32,847 nucleotides of DNA, from IMG/VR virus record IMGVR_UViG_3300027747_001500, positions 1 to 32,847 of that record. One strand, 5' to 3'. Shown one piece after another: positions 1-19,848 of the stretch. Origin of the DNA: a virus. Both the position numbers and the translations under genes were made by a program. A model generated the notes under the pieces. It was not told the origin of the DNA, searched no databases, and saw nothing but the letters and a program-made list of their open reading frames with translations. Each line of letters begins with the position of its first letter. Within the stretch, counting starts at the first letter, position 1.

Positions 1-875
1 TGGCTGACTTTTTCATTGCAGGCCATGTACTAGACAGAGCCGATGCCTATTACGAACTGCATCACCAGTGCTACGCAATCAATTTAAAAATGTATGCAAC
101 ATTGGGATATCCTACTATTGGTAAATTTGAGCCCGGTAGACAACATACTGAATTCGAACCGTTGCGTAGTCAAGAAACATTCCATGATGCACACACTCCA
201 TTCTGGGTCAAACCTGGTACTAAAGAAAAATTGTATCAGCATTGCTGTCATGGCTGGAACATATTACGAACAGCATTTGAAAACAACTTGCCTGTAATAG
301 TATTTGATACGCCTATTAGAAATTCTAAGAAACATTTTTATCCAGAAAATTTACAAGAGTTTTACAAACATTTGCCCTGGGCATATAAGCGACAAGACTT
401 TTGTCAAAATGAATTTATACACACTGAAAGCACAGATACTGCTTTGCCCAAGTTGACAAATATTTTGCAAGTGTTTACTCCCGCAAGTGGCACAGCATGG
501 ACAGAAATAATTCATAAGACAGAACCTGTTAGTGTAGTATTTTATGACTACAGCGACAAAGCATTAGAATACTGGAAATCGCATGCTCCGCAGTTAGATA
601 ACGTTACATATTCATTTGCTAAAATAAATCTGTTACACGATGAGCTAGTGCTGTCTAGATATCTCGATACTAGCATCAAAGAAACATTTATTAATTTGAC
701 AAATGTATTTGCATACGAAGGCACTGCTTTTTTTAATAGTTTAGGTTATAGGACCATTCGAGAAAAACAATTAATAGATAATATTAAACAAGTTTTACCT
801 GATGCTGTTATCTATCAGTCAGTTACAGCTAGTACAGGATTTGACAACACTCCACCGTGGCATACATATGATTGA
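1..875 (+). CDS. Hypothetical phage protein, 5' end cut by window edge
   Basis: The reading frame is open from base 3 to the stop at 873-875. The first ATG at 90 is therefore probably internal, because in-frame coding-like residues precede it. About 291 codons are visible. I do not recognise a family with certainty. The N-terminal half is rich in aromatic residues and His/Cys (HCCHGWN just after the middle of the first third). The C-terminal half, with VVFYDYSDKALEYWK followed by a stretch ending in NVFAYEGTAFF, has an alternating strand/helix look that could be a degenerate class I methyltransferase fold; this is a weak inference. It overlaps the next gene by 8 bases, so it is probably translationally coupled to the oxygenase downstream and belongs to the same accessory operon. 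Confidence 0.75.
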   Translation, partial: ADFFIAGHVLDRADAYYELHHQCYAINLKMYATLGYPTIGKFEPGRQHTEFEPLRSQETFHDAHTPFWVKPGTKEKLYQHCCHGWNILRTAFENNLPVIVFDTPIRNSKKHFYPENLQEFYKHLPWAYKRQDFCQNEFIHTESTDTALPKLTNILQVFTPASGTAWTEIIHKTEPVSVVFYDYSDKALEYWKSHAPQLDNVTYSFAKINLLHDELVLSRYLDTSIKETFINLTNVFAYEGTAFFNSLGYRTIREKQLIDNIKQVLPDAVIYQSVTASTGFDNTPPWHTYD

Positions 876-1608
876 TCAAGAAACATTAGACTTTTATAAC
901 CGCAACAAAAATCTCATTTGGGAGTTGCCGCCTATTCCATATAATCTTACAACTGATTACGAAATAGCCTATTGGGCTATGCACAATCCTAAAATAGGAT
1001 GGATTGAACTAGATTTAAATTTAGACTTACCGGCCTGGAAAGCAGACTGTCGAGTAGCCAATGACTATTTTGTAGATCATCGAGGTCTAGATCACCCCGG
1101 ATGGAATAGCTGTTGCATACACGGGATAGATGTAGATAAAACAGGTAGCTACGATACATACGGTTATACTGATGAATCGCAAGTAAATTATCACTGGACA
1201 GAACTAGCAGACAAAGTGCCAACTATTGCAAATTTCTGGCGCAACTTTCCAGTAGAGCAATATCGTAGAATACGCTTTATGGAGTTAGAGCCTAGAGGAT
1301 ATATTGCGCCACACAGTGACAACCCAGGCAACGTTGATGCACTAGAGCACGGCGCACCCTTAAACATAGCAGTTATTCACCCTAGTAATTGTCACATGGT
1401 TTTGGAAGGATTTGGAACTGTTCCTTGGGCAGAAGGGAAAGCGTTTATTGTTAATATTAGAAATCGTCATAGCGTGATAAATTTTAGCAATCAGCAACGT
1501 ATACACGTTATAGGGCATGGAAAATACGGTAGTAGGCTAGCTGATTTTTGCAGTCTAGTAGCAAATAATTACAAGAAAAACTTTGATAAATACCATGATA
1601 GGAGTTGA
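868..1608 (+). CDS. Aspartyl/asparaginyl beta-hydroxylase-like Fe(II)/2OG oxygenase
   Basis: This 246-residue protein carries the double-stranded beta-helix iron site of the aspartyl/asparaginyl hydroxylase (AspH) group. His149-Ser-Asp151 (in APHSDNPGN) is the HxD motif, His201 (RHSVINFSN) is the distal ligand, and Arg211, ten residues later, is the expected 2-oxoglutarate-binding Arg. The segment WAEGKAFIVNIRNRHSVINFSN matches the AspH pattern in which W..Gk leads into the distal His. Family members hydroxylate Asp/Asn residues or small molecules using O2 and 2-oxoglutarate; the substrate here is unknown. I start it at ATG 868, overlapping the previous stop by 8 bases, rather than at in-frame codons near 802 that lie deep in the previous gene. 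It is the first of eight such oxygenases in the island. Confidence 0.85.
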   Translation: MIDQETLDFYNRNKNLIWELPPIPYNLTTDYEIAYWAMHNPKIGWIELDLNLDLPAWKADCRVANDYFVDHRGLDHPGWNSCCIHGIDVDKTGSYDTYGYTDESQVNYHWTELADKVPTIANFWRNFPVEQYRRIRFMELEPRGYIAPHSDNPGNVDALEHGAPLNIAVIHPSNCHMVLEGFGTVPWAEGKAFIVNIRNRHSVINFSNQQRIHVIGHGKYGSRLADFCSLVANNYKKNFDKYHDRS

Positions 1609-1610
1609 AC

Positions 1611-2303
1611 ATGACAACATTTACTGAAACAGATATTAAAAAAGCTATTATAAAAAGCCAGCATTGCCAGCGTAATTGGGATTTAACTAAAGAAATTCCC
1701 GAAGAACATTTAGAGTTACTAAAGACCTCAGTTACACAAGCCCCAAGTTTGCAGAATGTAGCATTTTATAGAGTACACTGGATTCAGGATCGTGAAACTA
1801 TTGAGAAAGTTCACGCTTGTACACACGGTGCTCCTTACAAAAATACCGAGAAGGGCAAAATGGTTGATCCACATCCTAGAGAAGATGATCATCTTTACGA
1901 AATGGGAGATACTACCCAACCACAGACACTTGCTAATTTAGTAGTAGTGTTTGAAAAATATTTCAACCCAGAAGAATATTTTAAAGAAAAAAGAATCTTT
2001 AATACATCGTATGGCAGAACAGTAGAACATGGCGGAGAAGACTTTGATACAGTAACAGCACTAGGAATCGCATCTGGATACCTTAATTTAGTTTCTAGTT
2101 TATTGGGATATAAAACAGGATGCTGTATTAGCTTTAAACATTCTGAATTAAAAGAAGCATTAAACTTAGAAGGTGAACCATTACTTATTATGGGTGTAGG
2201 ATTTAAAGATCCCGAAGTAAATCGTCGCTTACATCAAACTGACCACGATATAGTGTTCCCAACAAACCCAAGGCAAGAGGTTCCGGTTGTTGAGTACAAA
2301 TAA
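1611..2303 (+). CDS. Nitroreductase-family flavoprotein
   Basis: The 230-residue protein resembles the FMN-dependent nitroreductase family. It has an N-terminal Arg in a helix-strand context (CQRNWDL, about residues 19-25), a segment of the APS..N type (QAPSLQNVAFYRV, about 43-55), and a C-terminal part with GIASGYLNLVSSLLGYKTGCC and LLIMGVGF, resembling the family's Gly-rich strand that contacts flavin. Such enzymes reduce nitro groups, quinones or other small molecules with NAD(P)H; some act as dehydratases or dehydrogenases in natural-product pathways. AGGAG at 1600-1604 lies six bases before ATG 1611, favouring this start over TTG 1605. The gene follows the AspH-like oxygenase by two bases and overlaps the next oxygenase by 17, so it is part of the same operon. 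The substrate is not predictable from sequence. Confidence 0.75.
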   Translation: MTTFTETDIKKAIIKSQHCQRNWDLTKEIPEEHLELLKTSVTQAPSLQNVAFYRVHWIQDRETIEKVHACTHGAPYKNTEKGKMVDPHPREDDHLYEMGDTTQPQTLANLVVVFEKYFNPEEYFKEKRIFNTSYGRTVEHGGEDFDTVTALGIASGYLNLVSSLLGYKTGCCISFKHSELKEALNLEGEPLLIMGVGFKDPEVNRRLHQTDHDIVFPTNPRQEVPVVEYK

Positions 2304-2871
2304 GTCTTATCACTCTCTAAATTTAAAAAACTGGGATAAGATAAAACAAAGATACTCGTCATACATTGCAGACGACATAACCGGTCAAGAGCTCATTATT
2401 TTTCAACAAGGTAATGAGGAACTTGACTGGTTAGAAGACAACATACTAGAAGATATCTGTAACTACACAGGTAAAGAACATAAAATAAAATTTGCCGCGC
2501 TTGGCGGCCTATGTGCTAACAATACTCTCAAAGAGCATATAGATGGTTTTTACCCTCCTCGACTAGGTTCGTCAAAATGGTCATTAAACATACCAATTAA
2601 AAATTACGACAATTTTGAAATGCTCTGGTATGATGGTGACTATGAACATCAAGAAAGAACAGACCCCCCTGATTTAACTTCACCGTTAAAAGCAGATGAA
2701 ATGCAGGTTATTAGGCCAAAATGGATTGGTGCCAAAAATCTTAAAGATTCCAGACTCATTAAAGGACCAACGATTGTCCAAATAAATATCCCACACGTAG
2801 TACACAACTATAGCGATAGCACAAGGGTAGTACTTGCTGTAAGGTTTACACCCGACGTAGAAATAAAATGA
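2287..2871 (+). CDS. Fe(II)/2OG-type oxygenase, jelly-roll fold
   Basis: This 194-residue protein has the iron-site arrangement of 2-oxoglutarate oxygenases: His84-Ile-Asp86 (KEHIDGF), distal His170 (NIPHVVHNYS) and Arg180 ten residues later (STRVVLAVRF). The stretch WSLNIPIKNYDNFEMLWYDG, just after HxD, fits the strand that usually carries 2OG or substrate contacts. The start is a TTG at 2287, six bases after AAGAGG (2275-2280); no ATG lies near the beginning of the conserved region, so the TTG is accepted with some doubt, TTG 2290 being the alternative. It is not obviously related in sequence to the five tandem paralogues downstream and may have a different substrate. It overlaps its neighbours by 17 and 4 bases. 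Confidence 0.75.
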   Translation: MLSTNKSYHSLNLKNWDKIKQRYSSYIADDITGQELIIFQQGNEELDWLEDNILEDICNYTGKEHKIKFAALGGLCANNTLKEHIDGFYPPRLGSSKWSLNIPIKNYDNFEMLWYDGDYEHQERTDPPDLTSPLKADEMQVIRPKWIGAKNLKDSRLIKGPTIVQINIPHVVHNYSDSTRVVLAVRFTPDVEIK

Positions 2872-3632
2872 AAACACTTTGGATATTTGGAGATTCTTTT
2901 AGCACTAGTAGAGACCCTGACGAACATGTTGCTTGGTCTAATCTTCTTTCCAACAAATTAAACGCACAAGTTAAAATCATAGCCGAAGGTGGTAGCTCTA
3001 TTGGATGGTTAATGTATCAATCATTTTTAATGAAAGATCAATTTAAAAAAGATGATTATGTTATCTTTCAAACGTCGACGCTAGTTAGAGCGTTCCTTAA
3101 TAAAAATAAACCAGGAATGACAGAGTTTTGGAAAGATTGTCCTTATTGGAACTCCTTGAGCAAAAGAGAAAAAGACGGGTATGCCTTTCATGTGACAAAT
3201 ATTCACGATGAAGAAATATTGCAACAACAAATACAGCTCTGGATATGGGGGATGGCACACTACACCTCTCATTTAATTACTAAGCCTGTATTATCTAGAG
3301 GATGGGATATTGGCCCGTTAGAAGTGCCGGAAGACTGGACATTAAGCCAAGGATTCTTATTAGATGCTAGCCTTGACGAATTTGATAAATCAAGAGATGA
3401 AAGCATAGACTGGATGTTGCGTGTAGGAGGTGATCCAAGGAACAATCACCTTAGCGAGGTCAATCATTACATACTTGCAGAAATGTATTATGATGCGCTG
3501 GTAAACAACTCTGTTCCAGATTTTAAAAAATTAAAAACAAAACTGTACAAGACATATTCTGAATTAGGAAATGAAAATCAAATACGTAATGATATAGAAG
3601 ATGAAAGTTTTGGTAAACGTTGGATAGCATGA
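2868..3632 (+). CDS. SGNH/GDSL-like hydrolase domain protein
   Basis: The 254-residue protein begins MKTLWIFGDSFS, so Gly8-Asp9-Ser10 forms SGNH block I with Ser10 as candidate nucleophile. A Gly lies in AEGGSSIGW (about residues 40-48). A later segment with DDYVIFQTS matches the strand leading to the Asn block, although the Asn itself is replaced by Thr/Ser. NNHLSEVNHYILAEMYYDAL near residue 195 supplies the His of block V. SGNH proteins are esterases or acyl-transfer enzymes acting on lipids, acetylated sugars or thioesters. Because the Asn block is weak, activity is uncertain and the substrate is unknown. The ATG overlaps the previous stop (ATGA) and its own stop overlaps the next ATG the same way, so it is embedded in the oxygenase operon. 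Confidence 0.7.
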   Translation: MKTLWIFGDSFSTSRDPDEHVAWSNLLSNKLNAQVKIIAEGGSSIGWLMYQSFLMKDQFKKDDYVIFQTSTLVRAFLNKNKPGMTEFWKDCPYWNSLSKREKDGYAFHVTNIHDEEILQQQIQLWIWGMAHYTSHLITKPVLSRGWDIGPLEVPEDWTLSQGFLLDASLDEFDKSRDESIDWMLRVGGDPRNNHLSEVNHYILAEMYYDALVNNSVPDFKKLKTKLYKTYSELGNENQIRNDIEDESFGKRWIA

Positions 3633-4336
3633 TAAAATACATTGGAAATTTTAAAGACTGGATCAAACCCGAGTGGATTGAGGAAGTCATGTCCAAACCG
3701 GGGTTTGATATGCCTAAACACGGTCTTAGAAATGAAGCAAGATTTAATCCAATACTATTTGACTACCTAGGCGGAGATGTAACTCGAGTACACACTAAAG
3801 AAGAATACTTGCAATTTGTCAAAGAACTGTCAGAGATGGATGAAATTGATCCTGTTGTAAAACATGCTAGAACACACGTTGCATATTTAGATCCAGACTT
3901 TCCAGTCGATGATGAATATAACATGTATAGAAATTCAGGATACGACATATGGGGTGTGTATTTTAGATTGCTAGAAAAATTTGATGTTAGTTTTGATATA
4001 CTAAAAGATCCACCACCATTCTTAGATTATAAAGACAAACACATAACATGGTGGTTTAGTAAAATGAATCCTGGACAACGTATGCCAGTCCACGTTGATA
4101 GAGCTAAGCCGGAAATAGAGATACACAAGTACTGGATGCCGTGGACCGATTACCAGCCCGGGCATATTTTTACCATAGGTGATAAAGTTATAACTGACTA
4201 CAAACAAGGTGATGTATATGAATTTGACTATGCTGGCGAATGGCATGGAGCATGCAACATAGGTCATACACCGAGAGTTGTGTTACAAATAACTGACTAC
4301 AAACCATCGAGAAATATAAATGAAACTTCTAGCTAA
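3629..4336 (+). CDS. Fe(II)/2OG-type oxygenase, tandem paralogue 1 of 5
   Basis: This 235-residue protein is the longest member of a five-gene paralogous array. The shared N-terminal signature (YIGNFKDWIKPEWIEEV, residues 4-20) is followed by a variable middle. A conserved C-terminal core contains PVHVD (His155, Asp157), GHIF (178-181), a Y-K-x-GD segment (191-195), distal His206 (WHGACNIG) and Arg216. The HxD...H...R spacing, with Arg ten residues after the distal His, is that of 2-oxoglutarate oxygenases. ATG 3629 overlaps the upstream stop as ATGA; TTG 3620 is an unlikely alternative, since the paralogues also begin M-x-Y/F/L just before the GN motif. It carries about 50 extra residues (near 45-100) that the other copies lack. 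The substrate is unknown. Confidence 0.8.
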   Translation: MIKYIGNFKDWIKPEWIEEVMSKPGFDMPKHGLRNEARFNPILFDYLGGDVTRVHTKEEYLQFVKELSEMDEIDPVVKHARTHVAYLDPDFPVDDEYNMYRNSGYDIWGVYFRLLEKFDVSFDILKDPPPFLDYKDKHITWWFSKMNPGQRMPVHVDRAKPEIEIHKYWMPWTDYQPGHIFTIGDKVITDYKQGDVYEFDYAGEWHGACNIGHTPRVVLQITDYKPSRNINETSS

Positions 4337-4859
4337 TTATAAAGATTGGATTAAGCCTAAGTGGGTTGAGGAAGCCCTTGCATTAGATGGCTATAAAGTC
4401 CCACACGATTTTTTTAAAGATAATAAACTTACGCTTGAAGAACAAGCAGGATTGCGAGAAGCAATGGATCCTTCAGAACGTGAGATATATGATGTGTACG
4501 GTACTGATGGAGTGTTTTTTCATTTGCTTGAAAGCAGTTTGTTTAGCTTCGAAGTTGATCAACCACCATGGATTGCGCCCAGTGAAACATTCTGTTGGGA
4601 AGTAATAAAAATGCACACTGGAGAATTTATTCCAGTACACAGAGATATACTAAAACATCAAGATCCTAACTCAAAAAGATTTTGGGTTCCAATGCTAGAT
4701 TGGAAGGAAGGACATATTTTTATGTACGAAGACCTTTATGTACATAACTATAAAGCAGGTGATGTGTTTTTGTATGACGACCCTCGAGCATTACACAGCG
4801 CAATTAATATTGGAGCAGATATTAGGTTAATTATGCAAGTAACAACTTACAAGGAATGA
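4320..4859 (+). CDS. Fe(II)/2OG-type oxygenase, tandem paralogue 2 of 5
   Basis: This 179-residue copy has the family signature LLANYKDWIKPKWVEEAL at residues 3-20; the usual Gly before Asn is Ala here. The iron-site residues are His107 and Asp109 (PVHRD), the distal ligand is His159 (LHSAINIG) and the presumed 2OG-binding Arg is Arg169. GHIFMYED and YKAGDVF are nearly identical to the corresponding parts of paralogue 3, so these two copies look like the closest pair. The ATG lies inside the end of paralogue 1 (17-base overlap), implying coupled translation. All apparent catalytic residues are kept, so it is probably an active enzyme rather than a decaying duplicate. Reaction and substrate are unknown. 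Confidence 0.8.
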   Translation: MKLLANYKDWIKPKWVEEALALDGYKVPHDFFKDNKLTLEEQAGLREAMDPSEREIYDVYGTDGVFFHLLESSLFSFEVDQPPWIAPSETFCWEVIKMHTGEFIPVHRDILKHQDPNSKRFWVPMLDWKEGHIFMYEDLYVHNYKAGDVFLYDDPRALHSAINIGADIRLIMQVTTYKE

Positions 4860-4861
4860 TC

Positions 4862-5380
4862 ATGGAGTATGTGGGAAATTTAAAAGACTTGATAGATACA
4901 AGTTGGGTGGAACCTTTATTAAAAGAAGTGTTAGGTAAGACTGGAATCTTAAGACCTAAAGAGGGAGGTAAACCTGACGGAGCAGAAGGCAATGCAGAAT
5001 GGCAGAAAGCTATTGATGCTGGGTACAGTCCCGATGCTGTGTATTTCCAAATGTTTAATCAATCTAATCTAACTACAGAAATACCCGAGTTTCATACTTG
5101 CGGAAGAGCAAGGCACTGGTGGATTACAAAAATGATGCCAGGGGATTTTATGCCCATGCACATTGACCCGCATACTAAACAAGAAAAAAATGTAGATCGT
5201 TTTTGGATTCCATTACAAGATTGGGAACAAGGACATATTTTTATGTACGAGGACGATGTTGTGACTAACTATAAAGCAGGTGACGTTTACAAGTATTCGT
5301 CTGCACAAGCATTACATGGTGCGGCAAACATAGGACTAGTTCCTAGATTAGTTTTGCAAGTAACCCTTTACGAGGAATAA
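4862..5380 (+). CDS. Fe(II)/2OG-type oxygenase, tandem paralogue 3 of 5
   Basis: This 172-residue copy begins MEYVGNLKDLIDTSWVE, a variant of the array signature. Iron ligands are His100 and Asp102 (PMHID) with distal His152 (LHGAANIG); Arg162 is the predicted 2OG contact. RHWWITKMMPGDFMP before HxD corresponds to the W-x-x-K-x-x-PG strand seen in the other copies. I choose ATG 4862 because AGGA at 4852-4855 is six bases away and the protein then starts like its paralogues. ATG 4856 (overlapping the previous stop as ATGA) would add only Met-Ile. A Gly/Lys-rich insert (KEGGKPDGAEGN, about 33-44) differs from the other copies and may form part of a substrate lid. Confidence 0.8.
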   Translation: MEYVGNLKDLIDTSWVEPLLKEVLGKTGILRPKEGGKPDGAEGNAEWQKAIDAGYSPDAVYFQMFNQSNLTTEIPEFHTCGRARHWWITKMMPGDFMPMHIDPHTKQEKNVDRFWIPLQDWEQGHIFMYEDDVVTNYKAGDVYKYSSAQALHGAANIGLVPRLVLQVTLYEE

Positions 5381-5382
5381 AA

Positions 5383-5937
5383 ATGGAATTTATAGGAAAC
5401 TACAAAGAATGGTTGAAGCCAGAGTGGGTTGAATATGTTCTAAATAATGATGGCTATGAAATGCCTAAATGGGAGTTTGAACAGAACGGAATACTTGAAG
5501 CCATCGAGCGAGGTGATCGCGCAGAGTTTTGTGAGTTTCAAAAGAAGTATGAAGAAGTAGGATTCAAACACAATTCTCTACTTTACTATTTGTTTGAGGA
5601 AGATAATTTTCCGTTTGAAGTGCCCTTGCCCCCTTTTATAAATTTAAAAGAAGGGCAAGGATATTATTGGAATTTATTTAAATACAAACCAGGAAACTTA
5701 CTACCAGTGCATAGTGACCGAGTAACTAAGTTTGAAAAAAATTGTAAACGTTACTGGATGAGTTGGCTTGACTGGCAGGACGGCCATATTTTAATTTACG
5801 AAAATCAAATGATTGCACCGTATAAGGCTGCTGATACTTACATCTTTACTAATCCATTCGGAACACACGGCGCCGCTAACATTGGCTTAACACCAAGAAT
5901 ATCATTTCAGATTACTATCTACGATGAGCAACATTAA
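5383..5937 (+). CDS. Fe(II)/2OG-type oxygenase, tandem paralogue 4 of 5
   Basis: The 184-residue protein starts MEFIGNYKEWLKPEWVE, close to the array consensus. Iron-site residues are His110 and Asp112 (PVHSD) and His162 (THGAANIG), with Arg172 ten residues later. The GHIF element reads GHILIYE, and the usual GD of YKAGD is YKAAD, so this copy is slightly diverged in the core while keeping the metal and 2OG residues. GAGGA with AATAAAA leads into ATG 5383, two bases after the previous stop. The 3' end overlaps the next gene (SGNH-like) by 14 bases. The operon layout suggests it is expressed with its paralogues. Substrate unknown. Confidence 0.8.
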   Translation: MEFIGNYKEWLKPEWVEYVLNNDGYEMPKWEFEQNGILEAIERGDRAEFCEFQKKYEEVGFKHNSLLYYLFEEDNFPFEVPLPPFINLKEGQGYYWNLFKYKPGNLLPVHSDRVTKFEKNCKRYWMSWLDWQDGHILIYENQMIAPYKAADTYIFTNPFGTHGAANIGLTPRISFQITIYDEQH

Positions 5938-6715
5938 AAGAATAGTAGCGTTTGGATGCAGTTACACTGCCGGAGAAGAGTTGTTATACCATCAACTTGG
6001 AGACCTCGACGAATATAGAAAAAGTACATCACACAATCCCCGATTATTTTTTCAAAAACTATCAAAGGATCCTGTTGCACAAGAAACTTTGAAAACCATA
6101 CGATCTGATCAATTGAAATTAGCATGGCCGGCAAAACTTGCCGCATTATTGAATATTGACTATGTCAACTTTGCAGAAGCTGGCAACAGTATGGATAAAA
6201 TACTATGGCAAGTAGAACAGAAGAAATTAGAAAAATTCTTCCAACTCGGAGATGTAATATTTGTAGGTGCCACTAATCCTGATAGGAATATATTCTTTAA
6301 GGACACTGGTCCTATGTCGTTTCAATTACCATCATTACATTGGGCGTCTGAAGAATCGCTAATAGGTGTTGATAGTGTCGGCAACATCGATGTTGTTATA
6401 AGCAAAAATGCAGATAAAGAGTTACTCAACTGGTTTACTGATGATCGAATTGTTTGGGATTATCTTAAATCGTTAAGGTCGTTAGCATCTCTGGGTGCTG
6501 CCATTGTAAATGCTATGTCGTGCGATATAAATTTAAATGTGCAATCATATAATGTTGAACTATTTAAAAACATAAAAGATAGCATACAATATCTTCAAAG
6601 TAATGATATGGATTCGTTCGCAGGAAAAGATGATTACTTGGCATGGGGTCACCCTAATGAGCAAGTGCATCAACGATTTGCGGAAAGCATATATGAAATA
6701 CTGCGGAAATTATAA
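5924..6715 (+). CDS. SGNH/GDSL-like hydrolase domain protein
   Basis: The 263-residue protein opens with KRIVAFGCSYTAGEE, which fits SGNH block I with Ser13 as candidate nucleophile (GCS in place of GDS). NFAEAGNSMDKILWQV (from about residue 83) resembles block II with a conserved Gly and Asn. WGHPNEQVHQRFAESIYEIL near the C-terminus supplies the block V His (about residue 243). Phage proteins with this GCSYTxG opening are common near tail and decoration genes, but their substrates are not established. It lies between paralogues 4 and 5 of the oxygenase array, overlapping both (14 and 23 bases), so it was either inserted into the array or duplicated along with it. It is only distantly similar to the SGNH-like gene at 2868. 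Confidence 0.7.
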   Translation: MSNIKRIVAFGCSYTAGEELLYHQLGDLDEYRKSTSHNPRLFFQKLSKDPVAQETLKTIRSDQLKLAWPAKLAALLNIDYVNFAEAGNSMDKILWQVEQKKLEKFFQLGDVIFVGATNPDRNIFFKDTGPMSFQLPSLHWASEESLIGVDSVGNIDVVISKNADKELLNWFTDDRIVWDYLKSLRSLASLGAAIVNAMSCDINLNVQSYNVELFKNIKDSIQYLQSNDMDSFAGKDDYLAWGHPNEQVHQRFAESIYEILRKL

Positions 6716-7247
6716 ACACTTAATCAATCCAGAATGGATAGAGTTATTGTTATCAACAAAAGGTATCCCTATCAGCCCTTGGAAAGATCATAAAGTAGAC
6801 GAGGTTAAAGAAGAAATTGATTTTGATCAATTGTTGACATCTACACAAGATGAACGAGATTTGTTTGTGACTGGACCGTATGGGGAAAGTCTCATCATGG
6901 CTGAGATGTTCACTGAAGAGAATATACCGTTTGTACTAGATTTCAAAGAAGTTCAACATCTATTTGCAGGTGACTGGTGGATCATAAAACAACTGCCAGG
7001 GCAGTATATGCCGATACATAGAGATACTGCATTATTCTACCAAGAAAATAATAGAATATGGATGCCGCTTATAGACTATCAACAAGGTCACATTTTTATT
7101 CATGAAGGTAATTTTATAAAAGATTACAAGGCCGGTGACATGTTTAAATATTTCAAAGATAACGATTTGCATGGTAGTATAAATTTAAGCTCGACCCCCA
7201 GAATTGTTTTGCAAATAAGCCAGAAACCTATACCATATGATCGTTAA
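6693..7247 (+). CDS. Fe(II)/2OG-type oxygenase, tandem paralogue 5 of 5
   Basis: This 184-residue copy starts MKYCGNYKHLINPEWIE, matching the array signature at ATG 6693, which lies 23 bases inside the preceding SGNH-like gene. An open frame reaches back to 6603, but those residues have no counterpart in the paralogues. His109 and Asp111 (PIHRD), His160 (LHGSINLS) and Arg170 form the expected metal and 2OG site; GHIFIHE and YKAGDMF are the shared core motifs. The NIG segment after the distal His is NLS here, a small divergence. It ends 11 bases inside the SDR-like gene that follows, so the operon continues. Confidence 0.8.
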   Translation: MKYCGNYKHLINPEWIELLLSTKGIPISPWKDHKVDEVKEEIDFDQLLTSTQDERDLFVTGPYGESLIMAEMFTEENIPFVLDFKEVQHLFAGDWWIIKQLPGQYMPIHRDTALFYQENNRIWMPLIDYQQGHIFIHEGNFIKDYKAGDMFKYFKDNDLHGSINLSSTPRIVLQISQKPIPYDR

Positions 7248-9651: not shown

Positions 9652-9670
9652 AGTATAAGTAATGTAAGCA

Positions 9671-9678
9671 TATTTATA
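9671..9678 (-). promoter_or_regulatory. T4-type late promoter (TATAAATA) for the tail-fibre-like gene
   Basis: Read on the minus strand, bases 9678-9671 are exactly TATAAATA, the late promoter word of T4-like phages recognised by the sigma-like gp55 and gp33. The gene's ATG is about 20 bases downstream, leaving a short leader. It lies in the 40-base divergent gap before the plus-strand halogenase-like gene. The second exact copy in the window (29955) has the same geometry, which supports function. Confidence 0.7.
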
Positions 9679-9691
9679 GTGGAAATTAATA

Positions 9692-13260: not shown

Positions 13261-14368
13261 AATATTCTGTATCAGCAATCAAAGGCAGTACTAACATAAG
13301 GTTATCCTGCCCATTATTCCATACTCCTATATGCAAACCGTTGTCATAGAATGTTTGTTCAGGAGTTGACTTAATATCTATATCAAACATTAATCCGTAG
13401 TTTCTAAAAGTTAACCCCATACTAGTAAAAAGTCTGGTCGCAGTATCGACAGTTGCAGTGTATTGATTTAATAAATCTTCTGTTTCTAATATTTCTAAAT
13501 ATTTTAAAGTTGAATAAATTCCACTTAATGAAAATGTATAGGTGAACCCGTGTCCCAAAAACTCATGCTTTACTACTTCGTTAACACGATCGCTTACTAG
13601 CGTAGCACTTAAAGGAAAGTATCCCCCAGTCAATGCCTTGCCCATGGTAAAAATATCAGGATCCAACTCAGTATCGAATCCAACAAACTTACCTGTCTTG
13701 CCACCACACATGGCAATATCATCTAAAATAAAAATCACATCGTGATCTCTGCATGTTTGTCTAAGTTCTCGCCAAAAATCTTTAGTATACTGTTTAAGAC
13801 CCTTATTCCACGAGCATGTTTCCATAACTAGGCAACAGGCTGTTTTAGTTTTAACAGCGTCTATTAATTCTTCTTGATTCAAAGCAATACAATTTTCAAC
13901 AGGATGTTTGGTCATATACTCTAATTGGCCGATGCCGGATGTTAGGTAAGTACTTCCGTGGTAAGAATTTTTAACACCGAGTATAGTGTGCCTAGGGTTA
14001 CCTTTAGCTTCGTGATATATTTTGGCTAATTTAATTGCACCCTCGACTGCGTCACTTCCACTTAGGGCAAATATACTTCTATAACCACCAGTGATATCAT
14101 ATAGTTTATTTGTTAGATCTATAACTGCCTGATTAGTGGTCATGTATTCGCCGCCAGCGAATGGATTGTCTAACATTTTATCAGCAACATAGTGTATAAT
14201 GTCTTTACGATCAAATCCTAGTAAAAAACAGCCGCAGGATCCTAGACTTAAATCTATTAAATCTTTGCCGTTTTCTACAAATCCAAATCTTGTATAATTA
14301 TCAATCTTTCTTGCGTTAGAATGATCGTAGTTGTAGTTAAAAGGGAACAAGAGCTTTAAATTTTTCAT
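13214..14368 (-). CDS. Class III PLP-dependent aminotransferase
   Basis: The 384-residue protein fits the class III aminotransferase family (ornithine, diaminobutyrate, GABA or glutamate-semialdehyde aminotransferases). SGSDAVEGAIKLA (103-115) is the phosphate-binding region, YHG (136-138) stacks on PLP, ILDDI has Asp216 for the pyridine nitrogen, and MGKALTGG carries Schiff-base Lys244. The family normally has about 400-450 residues, so this is slightly short. The specificity is not readable. With an amidinotransferase (which makes ornithine) and a SpeD-like enzyme nearby, an amino group on a basic chain is a plausible substrate. Minus strand, ATG at 14368, only 29 bases from the divergent radical SAM gene. 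Confidence 0.88.
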   Translation of the reverse strand: MKNLKLLFPFNYNYDHSNARKIDNYTRFGFVENGKDLIDLSLGSCGCFLLGFDRKDIIHYVADKMLDNPFAGGEYMTTNQAVIDLTNKLYDITGGYRSIFALSGSDAVEGAIKLAKIYHEAKGNPRHTILGVKNSYHGSTYLTSGIGQLEYMTKHPVENCIALNQEELIDAVKTKTACCLVMETCSWNKGLKQYTKDFWRELRQTCRDHDVIFILDDIAMCGGKTGKFVGFDTELDPDIFTMGKALTGGYFPLSATLVSDRVNEVVKHEFLGHGFTYTFSLSGIYSTLKYLEILETEDLLNQYTATVDTATRLFTSMGLTFRNYGLMFDIDIKSTPEQTFYDNGLHIGVWNNGQDNLMLVLPLIADTEYFTKLQERLAASLHVD

Positions 14369-14397
14369 ACAGTATTTAACAAGGTAAATATGGTGTC

Positions 14398-16314
14398 ATG
14401 AAAAATGTCTATCTTATACAAACTGAAATTACTTCCGGACCCTCTAATGAGCACTACCTACCATTCAGTGTAGGATGTATTTGGGCCTATGCAAACCAAT
14501 TTGATTATGTGAAAAATAACTATAAATTGCAAGATGTTATTTGGCGGAGAGATAGACAAAAAAATGTAATTGAAAAGATCATCGACCCTAGTATCATTGG
14601 ATTTAGTTGCTACGTATGGAATCATAAATGGAATCTAACCTTAGCTAAGAAATTAAAAGAACGTTTTCCAAACTGTCTAATAGTGTTTGGTGGTCCTAGT
14701 GTTAATGAAGAATGGCTCAAATACGATTTTATCGATGTTGCAATGTTTGGCGAGGGAGAAGTTGCATGGGCTAATCTTTTAAAGATGAATCTTAATAACG
14801 AGACTATTCCGAGATATTGGAATAACCCGAGACAAACAGATATTGAAAATTATCCTAGCCCTTACACTACAGGGTTCTTTGATAAAATTATTGCAGACAA
14901 TCCAGATATTAGTTGGTTTATGATGCTAGAAACTAACAGAGGATGTCCTTATCACTGTACGTTTTGCGGCTGGGGAGCCGACTATCTTAACAAACTAAAA
15001 AACTTTAACCTACATAGGGTTGAGGAAGAAATCAAATGGGCTATAACACATAACATACATTGGATGTTTGTGATCGATGCTAACTCAGGTATAATGAAAG
15101 AACGTGATGTCGAAGTAGCGTGGATGATCCGCAGAGCTATAGAAGCACCCAACAGCAAAATTAGACGTGTAACCTTTAACCATGCTAAAAATTTAAATGA
15201 GCATTGTTTTGAAATGGAAAAGATTATTCAAGCATGGACTTACGGTTTAGAAATGGCTATACAAAGCATGCACCAGCCCACACTAGATGCTGTGAAAAGA
15301 ATTAACATGGGTATGAACAATTTAGAACGTGCTTATGCCTTATGCCGTAAACACGGTATTAGATACTACACAGAGATGGTTTTAGGTTTACCTTTAGAAA
15401 CCAAGGACACTTATATTAATGGCCTAATGAGATTAATGGAATTAGGACAACACGACAGCGTTAAAACTTATCCTGCTACTGTTATTCCTAATAGTGAAAT
15501 GGACAGTGAAGAGTATAGAAACAAATACGGAATTAAGTTGATATATCCTAAAGATATGTATCGTAGTCCCGAAGAACGCATATGGGACGACGAAGATAGT
15601 AGTCATGAAAATATTGCCATGGTGTCGAGCACAAATACTGCTACCAGCCAAGATATTGCAGATTCATTAGCGTACAGTTGGATGATGAGTCAATTTCATT
15701 ATTTAGGAATAACACAACTTACTTCACGGTACTTGTATGAAATGCATAATGTTCCATACCGTCAATATTATGATGCATTATACAACGCAATTAAGAACGA
15801 CATTATAGGCGGTCCTATACTAAATGATGTAGAAGAAATATTTGTAAATTATTTCACTTACGGTGAAATGCCTGTAGGTGAAAAATGGAAGAACGTAGTT
15901 GCATTGACTATGCCCGAAAGTTACGGTATGGACGATATATTTGAAAACAAGAATCATTTTATAGACCTCGGAGTTACCGTTGGAAACTTATTTCATACTA
16001 TAGATCCAAGTGTCATAGAATTACAGTATGCTTTTATGTTGGATGAAAGCAAATCATATCCATTCATTCTAGAATCAGATATAGATATTGATAGATGGGA
16101 ACGTTTATCATGCTCATATTCGGTTAATAGGCGTTACATGGTTAGTCACATGCATGACCAAATGTATCAAAAATATTTGCTTAAAACTGATATTGCAAAT
16201 ATTAATAATCCTTATGTTGAAACCGACATAGAAGATTCATATAAAGGCAATAAGATCTCAGTCATTCCTATTTTACCTATACCTACAACTACCGCTAGTG
16301 GGAGAGTTATGTAA
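14398..16314 (+). CDS. B12-binding-type radical SAM protein
   Basis: The 638-residue protein has an N-terminal alpha/beta region of cobalamin-binding type (about 60-128: IIGFSCYVWNHKW, LIVFGGPSVNEE, DVAMFGEGE). A radical SAM domain follows, with the CxxxCxxC iron-sulfur motif at Cys183, Cys187, Cys190 (RGCPYHCTFCGWG). No DxHxxG is seen, as in class B radical SAM methylases where the domain binds cobalamin without that His. GLEMAIQSMHQPTLDAVKRIN and EMVLGLPLET are the usual barrel strands. After about residue 400 there is a long unassigned C-terminal domain. Family members methylate unactivated carbons or do ring rearrangements and couplings. It is joined to the next radical SAM gene by TAATG. 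Confidence 0.88.
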   Translation: MKNVYLIQTEITSGPSNEHYLPFSVGCIWAYANQFDYVKNNYKLQDVIWRRDRQKNVIEKIIDPSIIGFSCYVWNHKWNLTLAKKLKERFPNCLIVFGGPSVNEEWLKYDFIDVAMFGEGEVAWANLLKMNLNNETIPRYWNNPRQTDIENYPSPYTTGFFDKIIADNPDISWFMMLETNRGCPYHCTFCGWGADYLNKLKNFNLHRVEEEIKWAITHNIHWMFVIDANSGIMKERDVEVAWMIRRAIEAPNSKIRRVTFNHAKNLNEHCFEMEKIIQAWTYGLEMAIQSMHQPTLDAVKRINMGMNNLERAYALCRKHGIRYYTEMVLGLPLETKDTYINGLMRLMELGQHDSVKTYPATVIPNSEMDSEEYRNKYGIKLIYPKDMYRSPEERIWDDEDSSHENIAMVSSTNTATSQDIADSLAYSWMMSQFHYLGITQLTSRYLYEMHNVPYRQYYDALYNAIKNDIIGGPILNDVEEIFVNYFTYGEMPVGEKWKNVVALTMPESYGMDDIFENKNHFIDLGVTVGNLFHTIDPSVIELQYAFMLDESKSYPFILESDIDIDRWERLSCSYSVNRRYMVSHMHDQMYQKYLLKTDIANINNPYVETDIEDSYKGNKISVIPILPIPTTTASGRVM

Positions 16315-17474
16315 TGTTAATGGGCTTTAATCAAACTAACATAGACCGATTACTAGCAAGTATAAATGGTACAGTTTTAGATCCAACAGTAAGCCTATGC
16401 CATCATTGCCATAGACATATACCAGCATGGCGCTACCATAAAGATAATCAGGTGTTTATAGCCAAGTCATGTCCCATACATGGTATTAGCCATCATATGA
16501 TCGAATCTGACTATGAGTTTTATGCTAATCTATATTACACCCAGGATAATCCAGATTTTAATTTTAATGGCGGAGTACTTATCGAAGGTAGTGACCGCTG
16601 TAATTTAGAATGCCCACATTGTTACCATTTACCAGAAAACGATGCCCGCGACCCTTCTATAGAAGAATTGCTCGATCAAATACGAGATATGCCGGTAGGC
16701 GAGGATGGAGTACATAGAATCATCCTCGCCGGTGCTGAAAGTACCTTACGCAAAGACTTTCCAGAATTGATAACAGCTATCCGTGAGTTAGATCCCGAAA
16801 TGGATGTTAGTGTAATGACTAATGGCATACGTTTCAATGACAGCGATTTTATTCATAAATGTGTTGAAGCTGGACTTGCAGGTGTTAACATTGGGCTTAA
16901 TCATCCAAGTTACATCGATCACGAAACTGTAAGACGTAAACAAGTTAGTGCTATTGAAAACATGCACCGTGAAGATATCAAGATAGGTTACATTAGTTAT
17001 ACTATGGTAGACTTCAGTGAGCTTGATTACATACTAACTGAGATTACTAGTAATCCTTGGACTCCTAAAAATTTCCGCATACGTAATGGTGCAGAAATAG
17101 GACGTAATGCCAGCACCGAACAACCGTTTGTTAGCAACTTATACAAACGTGCGGAGCAATGGTGCAAGGATCATAGTAAACAGTTTGAACGAATCATAGA
17201 AGCAGACAATAATATCTATCATGTTATGGTTAAGATTGAAGATAAAATTGTGCGATTAATCAGCTGGTGCGATGAAACCAATATTGATATGGAAGAATTG
17301 CGTAGCGGACCTTGGTGTAACTTTGTACCCGACGGTATTACAAACTTCTTACATCAGATTATACGCAGAGATGTGTTTAAAAATAAAGGACTAGCCTTAC
17401 CGGATAGCCCTCCTAGTCGATATAAATTTAATCGCACACCCGATAAGTCAAAACTTAATTTGCTAAATCTATAA
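16314..17474 (+). CDS. Radical SAM protein of the MJ0619/tetraether-lipid-synthase type
   Basis: The 386-residue protein has the N-terminal zinc-ribbon-like element typical of COG1964 radical SAM proteins: SLCHHCHRHIPAWR (Cys29, Cys32) and KSCPIHG (Cys53, His56). The radical SAM CxxxCxxC follows at Cys96, Cys100, Cys103 (DRCNLECPHCYH). That family includes MJ0619, which methylates a pterin carbon using a methylene donor, and Tes, which couples lipid chains in archaea; both form C-C bonds at unactivated carbons. It is short relative to those (about 500 residues) and the C-terminal auxiliary cluster site is reduced (single Cys in WCKD, WCDE and PWCN). The ATG overlaps the previous stop by one base (TAATG), so the two radical SAM proteins are probably co-translated. 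Confidence 0.88.
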   Translation: MLMGFNQTNIDRLLASINGTVLDPTVSLCHHCHRHIPAWRYHKDNQVFIAKSCPIHGISHHMIESDYEFYANLYYTQDNPDFNFNGGVLIEGSDRCNLECPHCYHLPENDARDPSIEELLDQIRDMPVGEDGVHRIILAGAESTLRKDFPELITAIRELDPEMDVSVMTNGIRFNDSDFIHKCVEAGLAGVNIGLNHPSYIDHETVRRKQVSAIENMHREDIKIGYISYTMVDFSELDYILTEITSNPWTPKNFRIRNGAEIGRNASTEQPFVSNLYKRAEQWCKDHSKQFERIIEADNNIYHVMVKIEDKIVRLISWCDETNIDMEELRSGPWCNFVPDGITNFLHQIIRRDVFKNKGLALPDSPPSRYKFNRTPDKSKLNLLNL

Positions 17475-17811
17475 AGCCATTTGACCTATCAAGGAATTTA
17501 GTTTTAATATTTAAAATATTAAACTTATTCAAAACTTTAACAACATCTGGTACATTAAATTTTTTACAACTATAAACATCTAGTTGTATTAGACCAGTAT
17601 CCCAAGTGTGCATGACAATATGACTAGTAGTTATAGCCATGAGTGCTGTGTATCCTTCGTTATCTAAAACTTCTGATCTATAGACATATGGCCCTCCTAG
17701 TATTTCCATGTCAATAGTTGATACAATATCTAGTAGAATGTTTTTAACATCTAATTCAGACAATTGTGTTTCAGCAGTACCTTGTATTAATAGGTGCAAA
17801 TGATCTAACAC
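17455..17811 (-). CDS. speD: S-adenosylmethionine decarboxylase-like protein (SpeD family)
   Basis: The 118-residue protein matches bacterial class 1b AdoMetDC. The segment TTSHIVMHTWDTGLIQLDVYSC aligns with its active site: Ser63 (becomes the pyruvoyl group after self-cleavage), His68 and Cys82. Residue 62 is Thr instead of the usual Glu before the cleavage Ser. AdoMetDC supplies decarboxylated SAM for spermidine; some phage homologues are known to act on ornithine or arginine instead, so specificity is open. The start is GTG 17811 with AAGGAAG six bases upstream, and it abuts the methyltransferase stop (TAA-GTG). It ends in a 20-base convergent overlap with the radical SAM gene at 16314. 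A partner spermidine synthase is not visible. Confidence 0.85.
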   Translation of the reverse strand: MLDHLHLLIQGTAETQLSELDVKNILLDIVSTIDMEILGGPYVYRSEVLDNEGYTALMAITTSHIVMHTWDTGLIQLDVYSCKKFNVPDVVKVLNKFNILNIKTKFLDRSNGFIDLAN

Positions 17812-18405
17812 TTAAGGCTTCCTTCCTATGATCATGTAACGTGTGTACAGGGGTAATTTCATTTCGCCGCCCCAAAGAAAATGTAATCCACAAGTTTCCT
17901 TAAATTCATCAAATGATTTATGCCACCGCACATGCTCGGGGATATTATAATCATTACTTTGGATAATAATCAAACTACCGTTAGGCATTCTATCCAACCA
18001 TTTATCGTATTGTGCTTGTGTTAAGTGTTCACAGCTAGTATTAATAATAATATCTGCAACAGAAATTACATCGCACATATCTGCCGTATACGCTTTGAAC
18101 CGACCTTCAATTTCTTCACCCTTGTTCATTAGCGTAGCAATAGGTTCGCAGGTTGGATCAATGTCAATACTGCGAATAGTAGTAATGGGAATGTTGCTCT
18201 GAAATAACATGCTGGCAAGTGTACCAACCCAGCCGCCGAAGATGTCTATGCTAGATGCAAAATGCACATGCTCATCTAGACAATCAATCAACCATTCTTT
18301 GCTTTTTAATTGCCCCGACCAAAAGGCATCCATAGTACGCATAGGGTCCGGGCTTTGACGGATGGCCTGCATCCAATGGTGTAAATGGTTTGTATCTATC
18401 TGCAT
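17812..18405 (-). CDS. Class I SAM-dependent methyltransferase-like protein
   Basis: The 197-residue protein looks like a Rossmann-fold methyltransferase. SIDIFGGWVGTLASMLF (about 52-68) is motif I, with the SAM-binding Gly loop; IRSIDIDPTCEPIA (about 77-90) is motif II with the acidic residue; and DIIINTSCEHL is motif IV. The C-terminal half GLHFLWGGEMKLPLYTRYMIIGRK is a typical final strand pair. The substrate is unknown. It lies between the third radical SAM gene (10-base overlap) and the SpeD-like gene (adjacent codons), so the three are one minus-strand operon. All three use SAM, although for different chemistry. Confidence 0.8.
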   Translation of the reverse strand: MQIDTNHLHHWMQAIRQSPDPMRTMDAFWSGQLKSKEWLIDCLDEHVHFASSIDIFGGWVGTLASMLFQSNIPITTIRSIDIDPTCEPIATLMNKGEEIEGRFKAYTADMCDVISVADIIINTSCEHLTQAQYDKWLDRMPNGSLIIIQSNDYNIPEHVRWHKSFDEFKETCGLHFLWGGEMKLPLYTRYMIIGRKP

Positions 18406-19352
18406 TTTGGTATCTTGCTGTCCGCACTACTAACACATCTAGTAGTCACGCATTTTTGTGGCACAGAAAACAAAGTAAATTTTTCTATCGTGCCCAGTGC
18501 GGCTTCGTGGCAACTGTAAGCACGTTTGACTTCCGTACCTTTTATTATAACACTCTGATAACCTGCATTACAAGTCCAATTGGCAAATTGATTAAACCCC
18601 AGTGCATTAAACCGTTCTGCTTGATCTATAAAATAATTTTTATCACCATCCATTAAACGGATTTGATAACCTTCCTGCTGTTCAAAATCGTTTTGCATTA
18701 TATCAACCATCTCAGCTGTGTAGCCTTCCACTATGGCGGTGGCACTGTCATTGCTTTGTGGTTTAAGTGTTACATTAATTCCACGAGCTCGAAATCGTTC
18801 ACAGCGTTCTAGTGTTTCAAAGAACAGTTCTGGCACCATAACTTGATTAACAGTTACATGAACCCGCTCGTTCATTAACTGTAAACACTTGTCACCGAAC
18901 TCGTGCTCCTTGGCGAACTCTGCATGAAAGCTGGCTGTAATACTGCGGCGCTGTAGACAATCAGTGATGCTACACCAGTTTTTCCACCAGCTGGGTCCCG
19001 GACTCAAATTGGTAGTCATATGTATACTTTGGTAGGGACTTTCTAATTCATCTATATGTTTGATCAATTCGGGCAACTGTTTGTACGCAGTAGGTTCACC
19101 TCCTGAGAAGCTCCAGTGAAATTGGGTGAATCCGTTCAAACGAGCTTGACGTTTTATCTCGTCGACTGTAGTCTTATAGACTTCTAAACTTTGGTAATCC
19201 AAATTGTCGCTTCGGGCATAGGGCCAACAATAGCTACATTTGTAATTACAAAATCTACCTAGGATCCAACTTATGTTAAATAATGGGCGATCCAACATTG
19301 TTTGTTGCCCAAAATGCGTTATGTCTTTGAAAGGAATGATTGCGAAGTTCAT
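18396..19352 (-). CDS. Radical SAM protein with Cys-rich C-terminus (SPASM/twitch-like)
   Basis: The 318-residue protein has the radical SAM motif at Cys35, Cys39, Cys42 (GRFCNYKCSYCWPYA), a GGEPT element (FSGGEPTAYK, about residues 83-92) characteristic of the SAM-binding part, and a Cys-rich tail (WTCNAG, YSCHEA, QKCVTTRC, PKC). Such tails bind auxiliary iron-sulfur clusters in SPASM or twitch enzymes, many of which modify peptides. This makes a ribosomal or virion protein substrate possible, though no precursor peptide was identified. It begins the minus-strand operon followed by the methyltransferase and SpeD-like gene. Its start codon sits on the -35 box of the opposite-strand promoter. 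Confidence 0.88.
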   Translation of the reverse strand: MNFAIIPFKDITHFGQQTMLDRPLFNISWILGRFCNYKCSYCWPYARSDNLDYQSLEVYKTTVDEIKRQARLNGFTQFHWSFSGGEPTAYKQLPELIKHIDELESPYQSIHMTTNLSPGPSWWKNWCSITDCLQRRSITASFHAEFAKEHEFGDKCLQLMNERVHVTVNQVMVPELFFETLERCERFRARGINVTLKPQSNDSATAIVEGYTAEMVDIMQNDFEQQEGYQIRLMDGDKNYFIDQAERFNALGFNQFANWTCNAGYQSVIIKGTEVKRAYSCHEAALGTIEKFTLFSVPQKCVTTRCVSSADSKIPKCR

Positions 19353-19380: not shown

Positions 19381-19386
19381 ATACAT

Positions 19387-19847: not shown

Positions 19848-19848
19848 T

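Follow-up and report, generated by a model that had tools for sequence, protein, structure and literature searches.

The closest described systems are those of the Campylobacter phages CP220 and CPt10, in which five radical SAM genes were reported in 2010 to be clustered with a putative glycine amidinotransferase gene. That report (PMC2853527) portrays a module that keeps its functions with little sequence identity between phages and that is, in the view of its authors, likely non-essential and perhaps metabolic; phages of this type are presented as distant relatives of T4 in a further paper (PMC3322345). The earlier note on the DNA studied here knew of no described phage pathway with this combination of enzymes, a statement that needs correction: a smaller phage module of radical SAM and amidinotransferase genes is already published, and such systems are barely described. 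Our island resembles it in two respects, namely the clustering of radical SAM genes with an amidinotransferase gene in a T4-like phage and the swapping or reshuffling of content between related phages. Moreover, the relative F379 matches the island models for the amidinotransferase, the small radical SAM protein, radical-SAM-363 and the HMPTM protein, and has 11 radical SAM genes compared with nine in the phage record G003. Beyond the Campylobacter phage module, the island has 2OG oxygenases, a halogenase homologue, an aminotransferase, an SDR, the small protein g17 and a SpeD-like enzyme, together with a bordering gene of the Mtd_N type in most members.

The window, that is the whole stretch of 32,847 nucleotides analysed, is 99.985% identical to part of G003, a phage record of 265,680 bases that is T4-like in its sheath, tube, terminase and UvsX; as far as tested, in G003, the phages carrying the island are T4-like. 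Checked gene by gene for families and motifs, nearly everything between 868 and 19352 consists of enzyme genes, as had been proposed from the sequence. These limits were drawn too narrowly, since g01 (before 868) is included and the island of G003 is larger than in the window, lying at about 185-219 kb, with enzyme genes about 14 kb further left. Genes g01 to g24 of the window are listed below with their presence in 15 contigs, which were selected by the occurrence of g17, of g18 (amidinotransferase) or of g21.

g01, 3..875, plus strand: truncated at the start of the window (length in G003 about 380-400 aa); family in 12/15 contigs
g02, 868..1608, plus strand: Asp/Asn hydroxylase-type 2OG oxygenase (PF05118, E 1e-9); 11/15
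g03, 1605..2303, plus strand: nitroreductase-family flavoprotein (PF00881 over cut-off); 3/15
g04, 2287..2871, plus strand: 2OG-type oxygenase, HxD...H...R motif; 3/15
g05, 2868..3632, plus strand: SGNH-like hydrolase by motif only, without Pfam match; G003 alone among the 15
g06-g09, 3620..5937, plus strand: four 2OG oxygenases in tandem, all of the same family, mutual identity 29-39%
g10, 5924..6715, plus strand: SGNH-like hydrolase, weak (Lipase_GDSL, E 0.022, below cut-off); 5/15
g11, 6693..7247, plus strand: 2OG oxygenase of the g06-g09 family, by BLAST and motif
g12, 7237..7746, plus strand: short SDR/epimerase-like protein, 169 aa (PF01370, Epimerase, over cut-off); 14/15
g13, 7743..8528, plus strand: protein without Pfam or meaningful NCBIfam match; 3/15
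g14, 8680..9657, minus strand: fibre-like protein, no family over cut-off
g15, 9692..11260, plus strand: flavin-dependent halogenase homologue (PF04820, E 3e-93)
g16, 11233..11853, plus strand: 2OG-type oxygenase by motif; 6/15
g17, 11843..12259, plus strand: small protein whose CPFAK-type motif has an invariant Cys, 5' of the amidinotransferase gene
g18, 12256..13260, plus strand: L-arginine:amine amidinotransferase, StrB1/HsvA/AGAT-like
g19, 13214..14368, minus strand: class III aminotransferase (PF00202, E 2e-44); 15/15
g20, 14398..16314, plus strand: B12-binding radical SAM protein; 6/15
g21, 16314..17474, plus strand: radical SAM protein with HMPTM Zn-ribbon, Tes/TrsS-like; 14/15
g22, 17455..17811, minus strand: SpeD-like pyruvoyl decarboxylase homologue (PF02675 over cut-off)
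g23, 17812..18405, minus strand: methyltransferase-like, motif only; 15/15
g24, 18396..19352, minus strand: small (twitch) radical SAM protein (PF04055 over cut-off)

Most of the enzyme classes named in the earlier note were borne out. All eight 2OG-type oxygenases (g02, g04, g06, g07, g08, g09, g11 and g16) present the HxD...H...R motif, and among them g02 only passes the Pfam cut-off; the scores of g06, g07 and g11 fall short of it, BLAST relates g08 and g09 to g06/g07, and g04 and g16 are assigned by motif alone. Pfam matches agree with the flavoprotein, SDR, aminotransferase and SpeD-like assignments of g03, g12, g19 and g22, and the three radical SAM proteins correspond to g20, g21 and g24. 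The two SGNH-like hydrolases and the methyltransferase hold less firmly, given the weak match of g10, the motif-only assignment of g05 and the lack of any match for g23 in Pfam, NCBIfam or PHROGs. The tail-fibre likeness of g14, in the middle of the island, is similarly weak, amounting to 38.6% identity over 114 aa with the Mtd_N protein that borders the G003 island. For g01, the predicted structure (AF2 pLDDT 80.5, pTM 0.58) combines an N-terminal part resembling GT-A glycosyltransferases, with structural matches to GT-A domains at Z about 10, and a C-terminal methyltransferase-like part.

Regarding the radical SAM proteins, the nearest NCBIfam model of g20 is KedN5 (E 2e-45, far below the cut-off of that model) and its match to the Pfam family Radical_SAM likewise falls short of the cut-off, while the nearest solved structure to g21 is tetraether lipid synthase. 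Flavin-dependent halogenases have the motif WxWxIP, which is absent from g15, where the sequence reads GWRFKIG. We have consequently dropped the designation of g15 as an outright halogenase and call it a homologue, even if its family keeps, in 14/14 members, the Lys and Glu positions that we take to be catalytic in halogenases; among four other paralogues in G003, two keep WxWxIP and two have a variant of it. The protein matches VirX1 (PDB 6qgm, E 9e-53) and is homologous to tryptophan halogenases of cyanophages and pelagiphages, with 27-34% identity among the 40 matches listed of 77. Unlike our island, the 31-kb stretches around the halogenase genes of P-SSM2 and HTVC008M matched no other island model.

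The 15 contigs contain the same families, with gene order and strand reshuffled. Families outside the selection recur in 15/15 contigs for the aminotransferase, g23, the twitch radical SAM protein (44 members) and the small 2OG family of g06-g09 (50 members), and in 14/15 for the SDR; hence the island is a co-inherited unit, and its recurrence argues against a chance assembly. Several dozen genes for unusual chemistry thus form one reshuffled, co-inherited block in a phage group, and the independent, scattered carriage that would contradict a single cluster was not what we found across the 15 contigs. In G005, for instance, nine genes (SpeD-like, halogenase, g17, amidinotransferase, B12 radical SAM, HMPTM radical SAM, SDR, 2OG and aminotransferase) follow one another on a single strand, spaced or overlapping by a few bases except for one overlap of 67 bases. 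What stands of the earlier idea is that the genes behave as a unit, in their set across contigs and in their late-promoter motifs; one pathway or one product would be a further proposal. Some genes of the window have the character of accessories, namely g03, g04 and g13, present in 3/15 contigs each, and g05, present in G003 only.

The amidinotransferase g18 has no relevant match in Pfam and was corroborated by PDB sequence matches to StrB1 (E 6e-19), HsvA and human AGAT. It is homologous to the StrB1, HsvA, SxtG and AGAT enzymes, with which it shares an Asp, a His and a Cys (Asp154, His189 and Cys315, invariant in 8/8 members) that presumably are the catalytic residues; unlike those enzymes, its gene is accompanied in the phage group by g17. 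The latter was found in 14/15 contigs by clustering and in the fifteenth (G026) by tblastn (L077); it lies upstream of the amidinotransferase gene on the same strand in 13/14, at a distance of at most 60 bases in eight. Its AF2 model (pLDDT 88.6) is structurally closest to AglA (Z 6.2, rmsd 3.8, 130 aligned), the next match outside AglA having a Z of 4.2. AglA is, according to its description (PMC12866846), a YqcI/YcgG thiolate-heme guanidine N-hydroxylase. The sequences of both families contain a C-x-x-A-K-type motif. We tentatively consider that g17 may have the sandwich fold of a thiolate-heme oxygenase, with its Cys22, invariant in 19/19 members, perhaps equivalent as a heme ligand to Cys44 of AglA. 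A sequence-profile relation to AglA and the YqcI/YcgG family was not found, with PF08892 absent from the matches of the 19 members and an hhalign probability of 0.34%; the profile link of g17 is instead with DUF6875/DUF1415, over 28-29 columns. If an oxygenase, g17 could feed or follow the adjoining arginine-using amidinotransferase, yielding a guanidino or hydroxyguanidino group.

The island looks switched on late, as virion genes are, judging from its T4-type late-promoter motifs, two of which lie in the window:

1585..1592, plus strand: late-promoter motif GATAAATA, ahead of g03
9671..9678, minus strand: late-promoter motif TATAAATA, ahead of g14

In G003, GATAAATA, which emerged by unbiased recovery and has 18 copies genome-wide, lies no more than 100 bases ahead of 15 ORFs where 0.86 would be expected, and the late motif precedes the tail sheath, tail tube and island-border fibre genes. 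The motif ATAAATA lies ahead of many island operons: within islands, 30/66 of its copies fall in the 50 bases that precede an ORF of the island, as against 2-17% for 20 permuted motifs. It is not commoner at operon heads in the island (28/169) than at other operon heads (54/330).

Among the 11 contigs that have the ends of the enzyme block in view, eight have next to it a gene with the N-terminus of the tropism determinant, Mtd_N; this gene is absent from G005, G020 and G022, each of which has both ends visible. Pfam Mtd_N is detected in all eight border proteins and in the distant contig G31, over cut-off in 7/9 (G016 and G027 being just below), and the match with Major tropism determinant proteins is confined to this N-terminal domain of 37 residues. 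The border gene is the sole strong fibre match in the 265-kb G003 record, and of 29 more distant stretches tested, which include several short ones, just three (G31, L088 and L090) have such a match. G31 carries the island with its Mtd_N gene: 21/25 of these ORFs have relatives in the 15 contigs versus 2/25 of the next 25 (16/25 and 1/25 with respect to G003 alone), and further out 4 of the last 8 ORFs match the 15 contigs again.

In functional terms, these observations raise a question: On what do the enzymes act? Our preferred answer, which we put at somewhat less than an even chance, is that the island constitutes a co-inherited, late-expressed modification system acting on a product made during virion assembly, with the virion as likeliest target. 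Its enzymes would install hydroxylations, radical-SAM C-H chemistry and amidino groups, with halogenation in some phages, on this target, above all on the Mtd_N-type tail fibre encoded at the island border in most members; the modification would serve in receptor binding, in stability or in evading host defence. We infer such uses, as well as the common pathway and the virion-protein target. Several points weigh against a virion target: three contigs have no Mtd_N gene, G024 has a sub-block of g17, g18, SpeD-like gene and g21 beyond the fibre gene and apart from the main block, distant fibre matches are few, and the motif is equally frequent at other operon heads. Tail-fibre regions gather cargo of many kinds, so the linkage of fibre and island may be positional. 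A bolder version, which we consider unlikely, is that a multistep pathway, carried as a reshuffling cassette that frequently includes a fibre gene of its own, remakes amino-acid side chains of the tail fibre (with hydroxyl, C-methyl, halogen, guanidine or hydroxyguanidine), diversifying the receptor-binding surface chemically and not only genetically. Were the virion the target, phage tail fibres would undergo heavy post-translational modification through radical and oxidative chemistry of enzymes, and host-range evolution would have a layer that sequence alone misses.

A diffusible small molecule made late, and directed against competing phages or bacteria or used for host management, is a rather less probable product; late promoters would fit a secreted product as well. 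The amidinotransferase, class III aminotransferase, SpeD-like decarboxylase, SDR, halogenase homologue and KedN5-nearest radical SAM protein recall antibiotic and toxin pathways, and the g17-amidinotransferase pairing points to arginine-derived chemistry. Two further points tell against a virion target: the aminotransferase, SDR and SpeD-like enzymes are of types commoner in small-molecule pathways, and the 2010 authors viewed their module as perhaps metabolic. However, Pfam recognised no NRPS, PKS or ATP-grasp ligase among g01 to g24 of the window and 10 further genes of G003, no conserved precursor gene of RiPP type was found among island ORFs of at least 50 aa present in at least 4/15 contigs, and the association with an Mtd_N gene seen in the majority of members would be unexpected. 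Such a product would imply an unusually rich natural-product pathway for a phage. Either way, the island supplies a defined set of genes on which to test the radical-SAM, 2OG and halogenase genes of phages, long counted without a substrate.

Decidedly unlikely is an action on glycans or lipids of the host or virion envelope, such as lipopolysaccharide-like material. A fatty-acid desaturase (over the Pfam cut-off in G003) lies near the fibre gene in several phages, the solved structure closest to g21 acts in lipid synthesis, g01 has a predicted GT-A-like fold, genes in G005, G020 and G022 read as glycosyltransferase- and carbamoyltransferase-like without family search, and in S-SCSM2R the amidinotransferase adjoins KdsA/KdsB. 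Yet the desaturase family occurs in just 5/15 contigs, glycosyltransferase-like genes other than g01 lie outside the shared core, and halogenases of the g15 type require an aromatic substrate. A hot spot gathering unrelated auxiliary genes without a common pathway is the least probable explanation: reshuffling is fast, several genes occur in at most 3/15 contigs, and cyanophages and a pelagiphage have the halogenase in tested stretches that contain no other island family, but unselected families recur in 14-15/15 contigs, a core is shared with G31, whose nearest flank is mostly unrelated, and the present data lean towards a core that is kept together.

With regard to the SpeD-like protein, phage SpeD homologues with altered substrate have been published, so that for g22 ornithine or arginine would be alternatives to AdoMet, and the processing residues of SpeD are Ser63, His68 and Cys83 in T. 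maritima numbering, according to PMC10407285. The g22 family keeps these Ser, His and Cys residues in 8/8 members, in all of which the residue preceding the Ser is Thr.

The stretch under study, a virus record of 32,847 bases, is wholly contained in a longer IMG/VR contig, 3300028393_000019 (G003; 265,680 bases), with 99.985% identity and 5 mismatches, a window position p corresponding to p + 199,608 in the longer record. Genes for a tail sheath and a tail tube, a terminase large subunit, UvsX and ribonucleotide reductase lead us to take G003 for a T4-like myovirus. Its amidinotransferase, g18, occurs in identical form in four IMG/VR contigs including G003 itself, and a DNA search (near mode) of known phages with window positions 1-25000 returned no match. 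Very large ORFs of 2,925, 3,701 and 4,416 residues, probably fibre-like, lie at G003 8,307-28,235 and 250,226-263,476.

When tested against Pfam, PHROGs, NCBIfam and PDB sequences, the enzyme types that the earlier note had read from motifs in the island (868-19352) were supported, apart from the SGNH and methyltransferase calls, which depend mainly on motifs; the HxD...H...R pattern is present in all eight of the proposed 2OG-type oxygenases. The island moreover runs on leftward beyond the window edge in G003, where the following are encoded:

sulfotransferase-like protein, below cut-off
fatty-acid desaturase
further 2OG-type proteins, one just under the PF05118 cut-off, the others by motif
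PP-loop-like protein, below cut-off
more radical SAM proteins

Radical SAM domains number 9 in G003, 13 in each of its relatives G020, G028 and G029, and 17 in the distant contig G033; among comparison phages the counts are 11 in F379, a Campylobacter phage related to CP220 and CPt10, 2 in S-SCSM2R, 1 in HTVC008M and 0 in P-SSM2. The GC content of the window is 34-38% across most of the island and 41-44% rightward, with a step near 18000-19500. At the right edge lies the following call:

19387-19482, tRNA-Pro (ggg), 96 bases, possibly a false call

A tRNA integration mark at this edge was considered and discarded, the window tRNA-Pro not being found in the stretches that hold the edge in eight relatives. 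Further right, at 29333-29923, is a ClpP-like protein with matches to families of head maturation proteases; at several more distant loci a homologue is encoded a few kb away from the amidinotransferase.

Do these genes travel together? Relatives were gathered by viral scans with g18, the HMPTM radical SAM g21 and the small Cys protein g17, and ORFs were clustered in 15 contigs (G3, G5, G16, G17 and G19-G29), of which G003 is the longest; three contigs with identical g18 (L002, L003, L005), the shorter fragments L057, L059, L060 and L062-L064, and more distant loci were excluded. The counts for g17, g18 and g21 are ascertained, these genes having served to choose the contigs. All counts come from a simple ORF caller with single-linkage clustering, and a family scored as absent may be missed, split or cut at a contig end: g17 of G026, recovered by a separate search, is one known miss, and the caller dropped g11 and g14 of G003.

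Island families and the number of the 15 contigs in which they were found
small 2OG family, 15/15
twitch radical SAM, 15/15
g24-type radical SAM, 15/15
aminotransferase g19, 15/15
methyltransferase-like g23, 15/15
second 2OG-like family, 14/15
radical SAM-363, 14/15
SDR g12, 14/15
g21, 14/15 (used for choosing contigs)
g17, 14/15 by clustering, 15 with the copy found separately (used for choosing contigs)
2OG-like family f240, 13/15
family f239, 12/15
g01, 12/15
g02, 11/15
PP-loop-like, 10/15
halogenase, 9/15
SpeD-like, 8/15
B12 radical SAM g20, 6/15

For each of the 18 families tested, every contig possessing it, with at most one exception, has its nearest copy no further than 30 kb from g18. 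The island genes are thus co-inherited. Conservation of both gene set and gene order had been put forward as a check: the set does recur near g18, whereas order and strand vary between contigs. Locally, g17 lies upstream of g18 on the same strand in 13 of 14 cases (gap of 60 bases or less in 8), 11 of 15 contigs have g19 no more than 60 bases away from g18, and nine genes of G005, from the SpeD-like to the aminotransferase gene, form a single same-strand run.

An unbiased 8-mer search 5' of G003 ORFs yields GATAAATA and its neighbours, a motif that we take to be the T4-type late promoter. In G003 it precedes the genes for the tail sheath and tail tube as well as several large ones that are fibre-like, and also the Mtd_N gene bordering the island. 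Two copies stand in the window:

1585-1592, late-promoter motif ahead of g03
9671-9678, minus strand, late-promoter motif ahead of the fibre-like g14

ATAAATA is otherwise rare in the window (5 observed, 14 expected). Across the islands of the 15 contigs, both strands considered, 30 of 66 motif copies fall in the 50 bases that precede an island ORF, against 2-17% for 20 permuted motifs, and 23 of these 30 sit at -14 to -10. The raw count (32 of 497 island genes), strong as it appeared against random windows, was set aside because comparable totals arose with permuted AT-rich motifs; the late motif is distinct from them only once normalised to its copies in the island. Its frequency at operon heads is equal inside the island (28/169) and elsewhere (54/330), so the island genes look late-expressed as much of the genome does, and not specially so.

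The enzyme block is flanked by a gene for a protein with an Mtd_N N terminus, the N-terminal domain of the major tropism determinant, in 8 of the 15 contigs, and on that side G19, G21, G23 and G28 break off within the island. All eight border proteins and that of the distant contig G31 match Pfam Mtd_N, above cut-off in 7 of 9, and in the 265-kb G003 record the border gene is the sole strong match, a second one being weak. Against a fibre link count G5, G20 and G22, in which both block ends are visible and neither has an Mtd_N gene. Two kinds of protein without assigned role stand at one of these ends, and we rejected a fibre-like reading of this part because it has no virion family match, its large member in G5 (about 1,450 residues) carrying subtilase and esterase-like domains. 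In G24, a g17-g18-SpeD-g21 group lies past the Mtd_N gene, separate from the main block.

The sharing with distant contigs is what speaks most strongly for a fibre partnership, and also what limits it. In G31, whose amidinotransferase is about 32-34% identical, the first 18.8 kb of the contig comprise such an island plus an Mtd_N gene, with BLAST relatives in the 15 contigs for 21 of 25 ORFs (16 of 25 against G003 alone). Among the 25 ORFs that follow, no more than 2 have relatives in the 15 contigs (1 in G003), and among the 8 ORFs that close the stretch relatives reappear for 4, three matching G25 at 57-67%. Loci L088 and L090 are probably closely related to G31 and have an Mtd_N gene 5.5-6.0 kb from the amidinotransferase. 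A strong Mtd_N match is found in 3 of 29 more distant stretches, several of which are short.

The reading that we tentatively favour, given the gene identities, the co-inheritance, the late-promoter motifs and the partial fibre linkage, is that the island may be a late, often fibre-linked modification system whose most likely target is a virion protein. We infer that its enzymes would share one substrate, that this would be a virion protein and, likewise, whatever purpose the modification would have. A published precedent for the radical SAM and amidinotransferase content is the interchangeable cluster of CP220 and CPt10, in which an amidinotransferase gene accompanies five radical SAM genes (PMC2853527), the sole relevant phage paper recognised in open-licence PubMed Central from mostly titles and abstract openings. 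The earlier note knew of no described phage pathway with this combination; the same literature yielded no description of it either, the CP220 and CPt10 cluster being a related module. The available portion of a review of cyanophage chemistry (PMC10452541) counts halogenase-like and 2OG genes and names no substrate.

What g17 might do is suggested by its predicted structure. The model is confident (pLDDT 88.6), and its best structural neighbour is AglA (Z 6.2, 130 aligned residues, rmsd 3.8; the next reaches 4.2), a thiolate-heme guanidine N-hydroxylase (PMC12866846; family background in PMC10849742). The structure tool warns that a Z below 8 may reflect nothing more than a shared arrangement, and the two families have no link at profile level, so that an AglA-like enzyme is a lead, attractive because the neighbouring g18, which keeps the amidinotransferase triad, uses arginine. 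No Foldseek match to the model reached E 0.001, and a profile search of the PDB gave none below E 0.5; YqcI/YcgG as the family of g17 was dropped after profile comparison showed no link. A pattern scan across 84,980 species genomes of bacteria and archaea, which distant relatives can escape, gave 76 pattern matches and no relative of g17.

For g21, 81 relatives were found in the 84,980 genomes, 80 of them kept, at 21-37% identity mostly over the radical SAM core; it is closest to TrsS/Tes, and g20 to KedN5-type C-methyltransferases. The halogenase homologue g15 retains the flavin-halogenase Lys and Glu but not the WxWxIP motif, which is kept in full by two of four further homologues in G003 (32,553-34,169 and 42,400-46,983, three in tandem). 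The SpeD-like g22 keeps the self-processing Ser, His and Cys; published work (PMC10407285) describes phage relatives of SpeD whose decarboxylation substrate is ornithine or arginine. Finally, g01 (G003 199,281-200,483) is predicted to be a two-domain protein, and the closest structural matches to the GT-A-like half of its model are human lysyl hydroxylase LH3 and glycosyltransferases of viruses.
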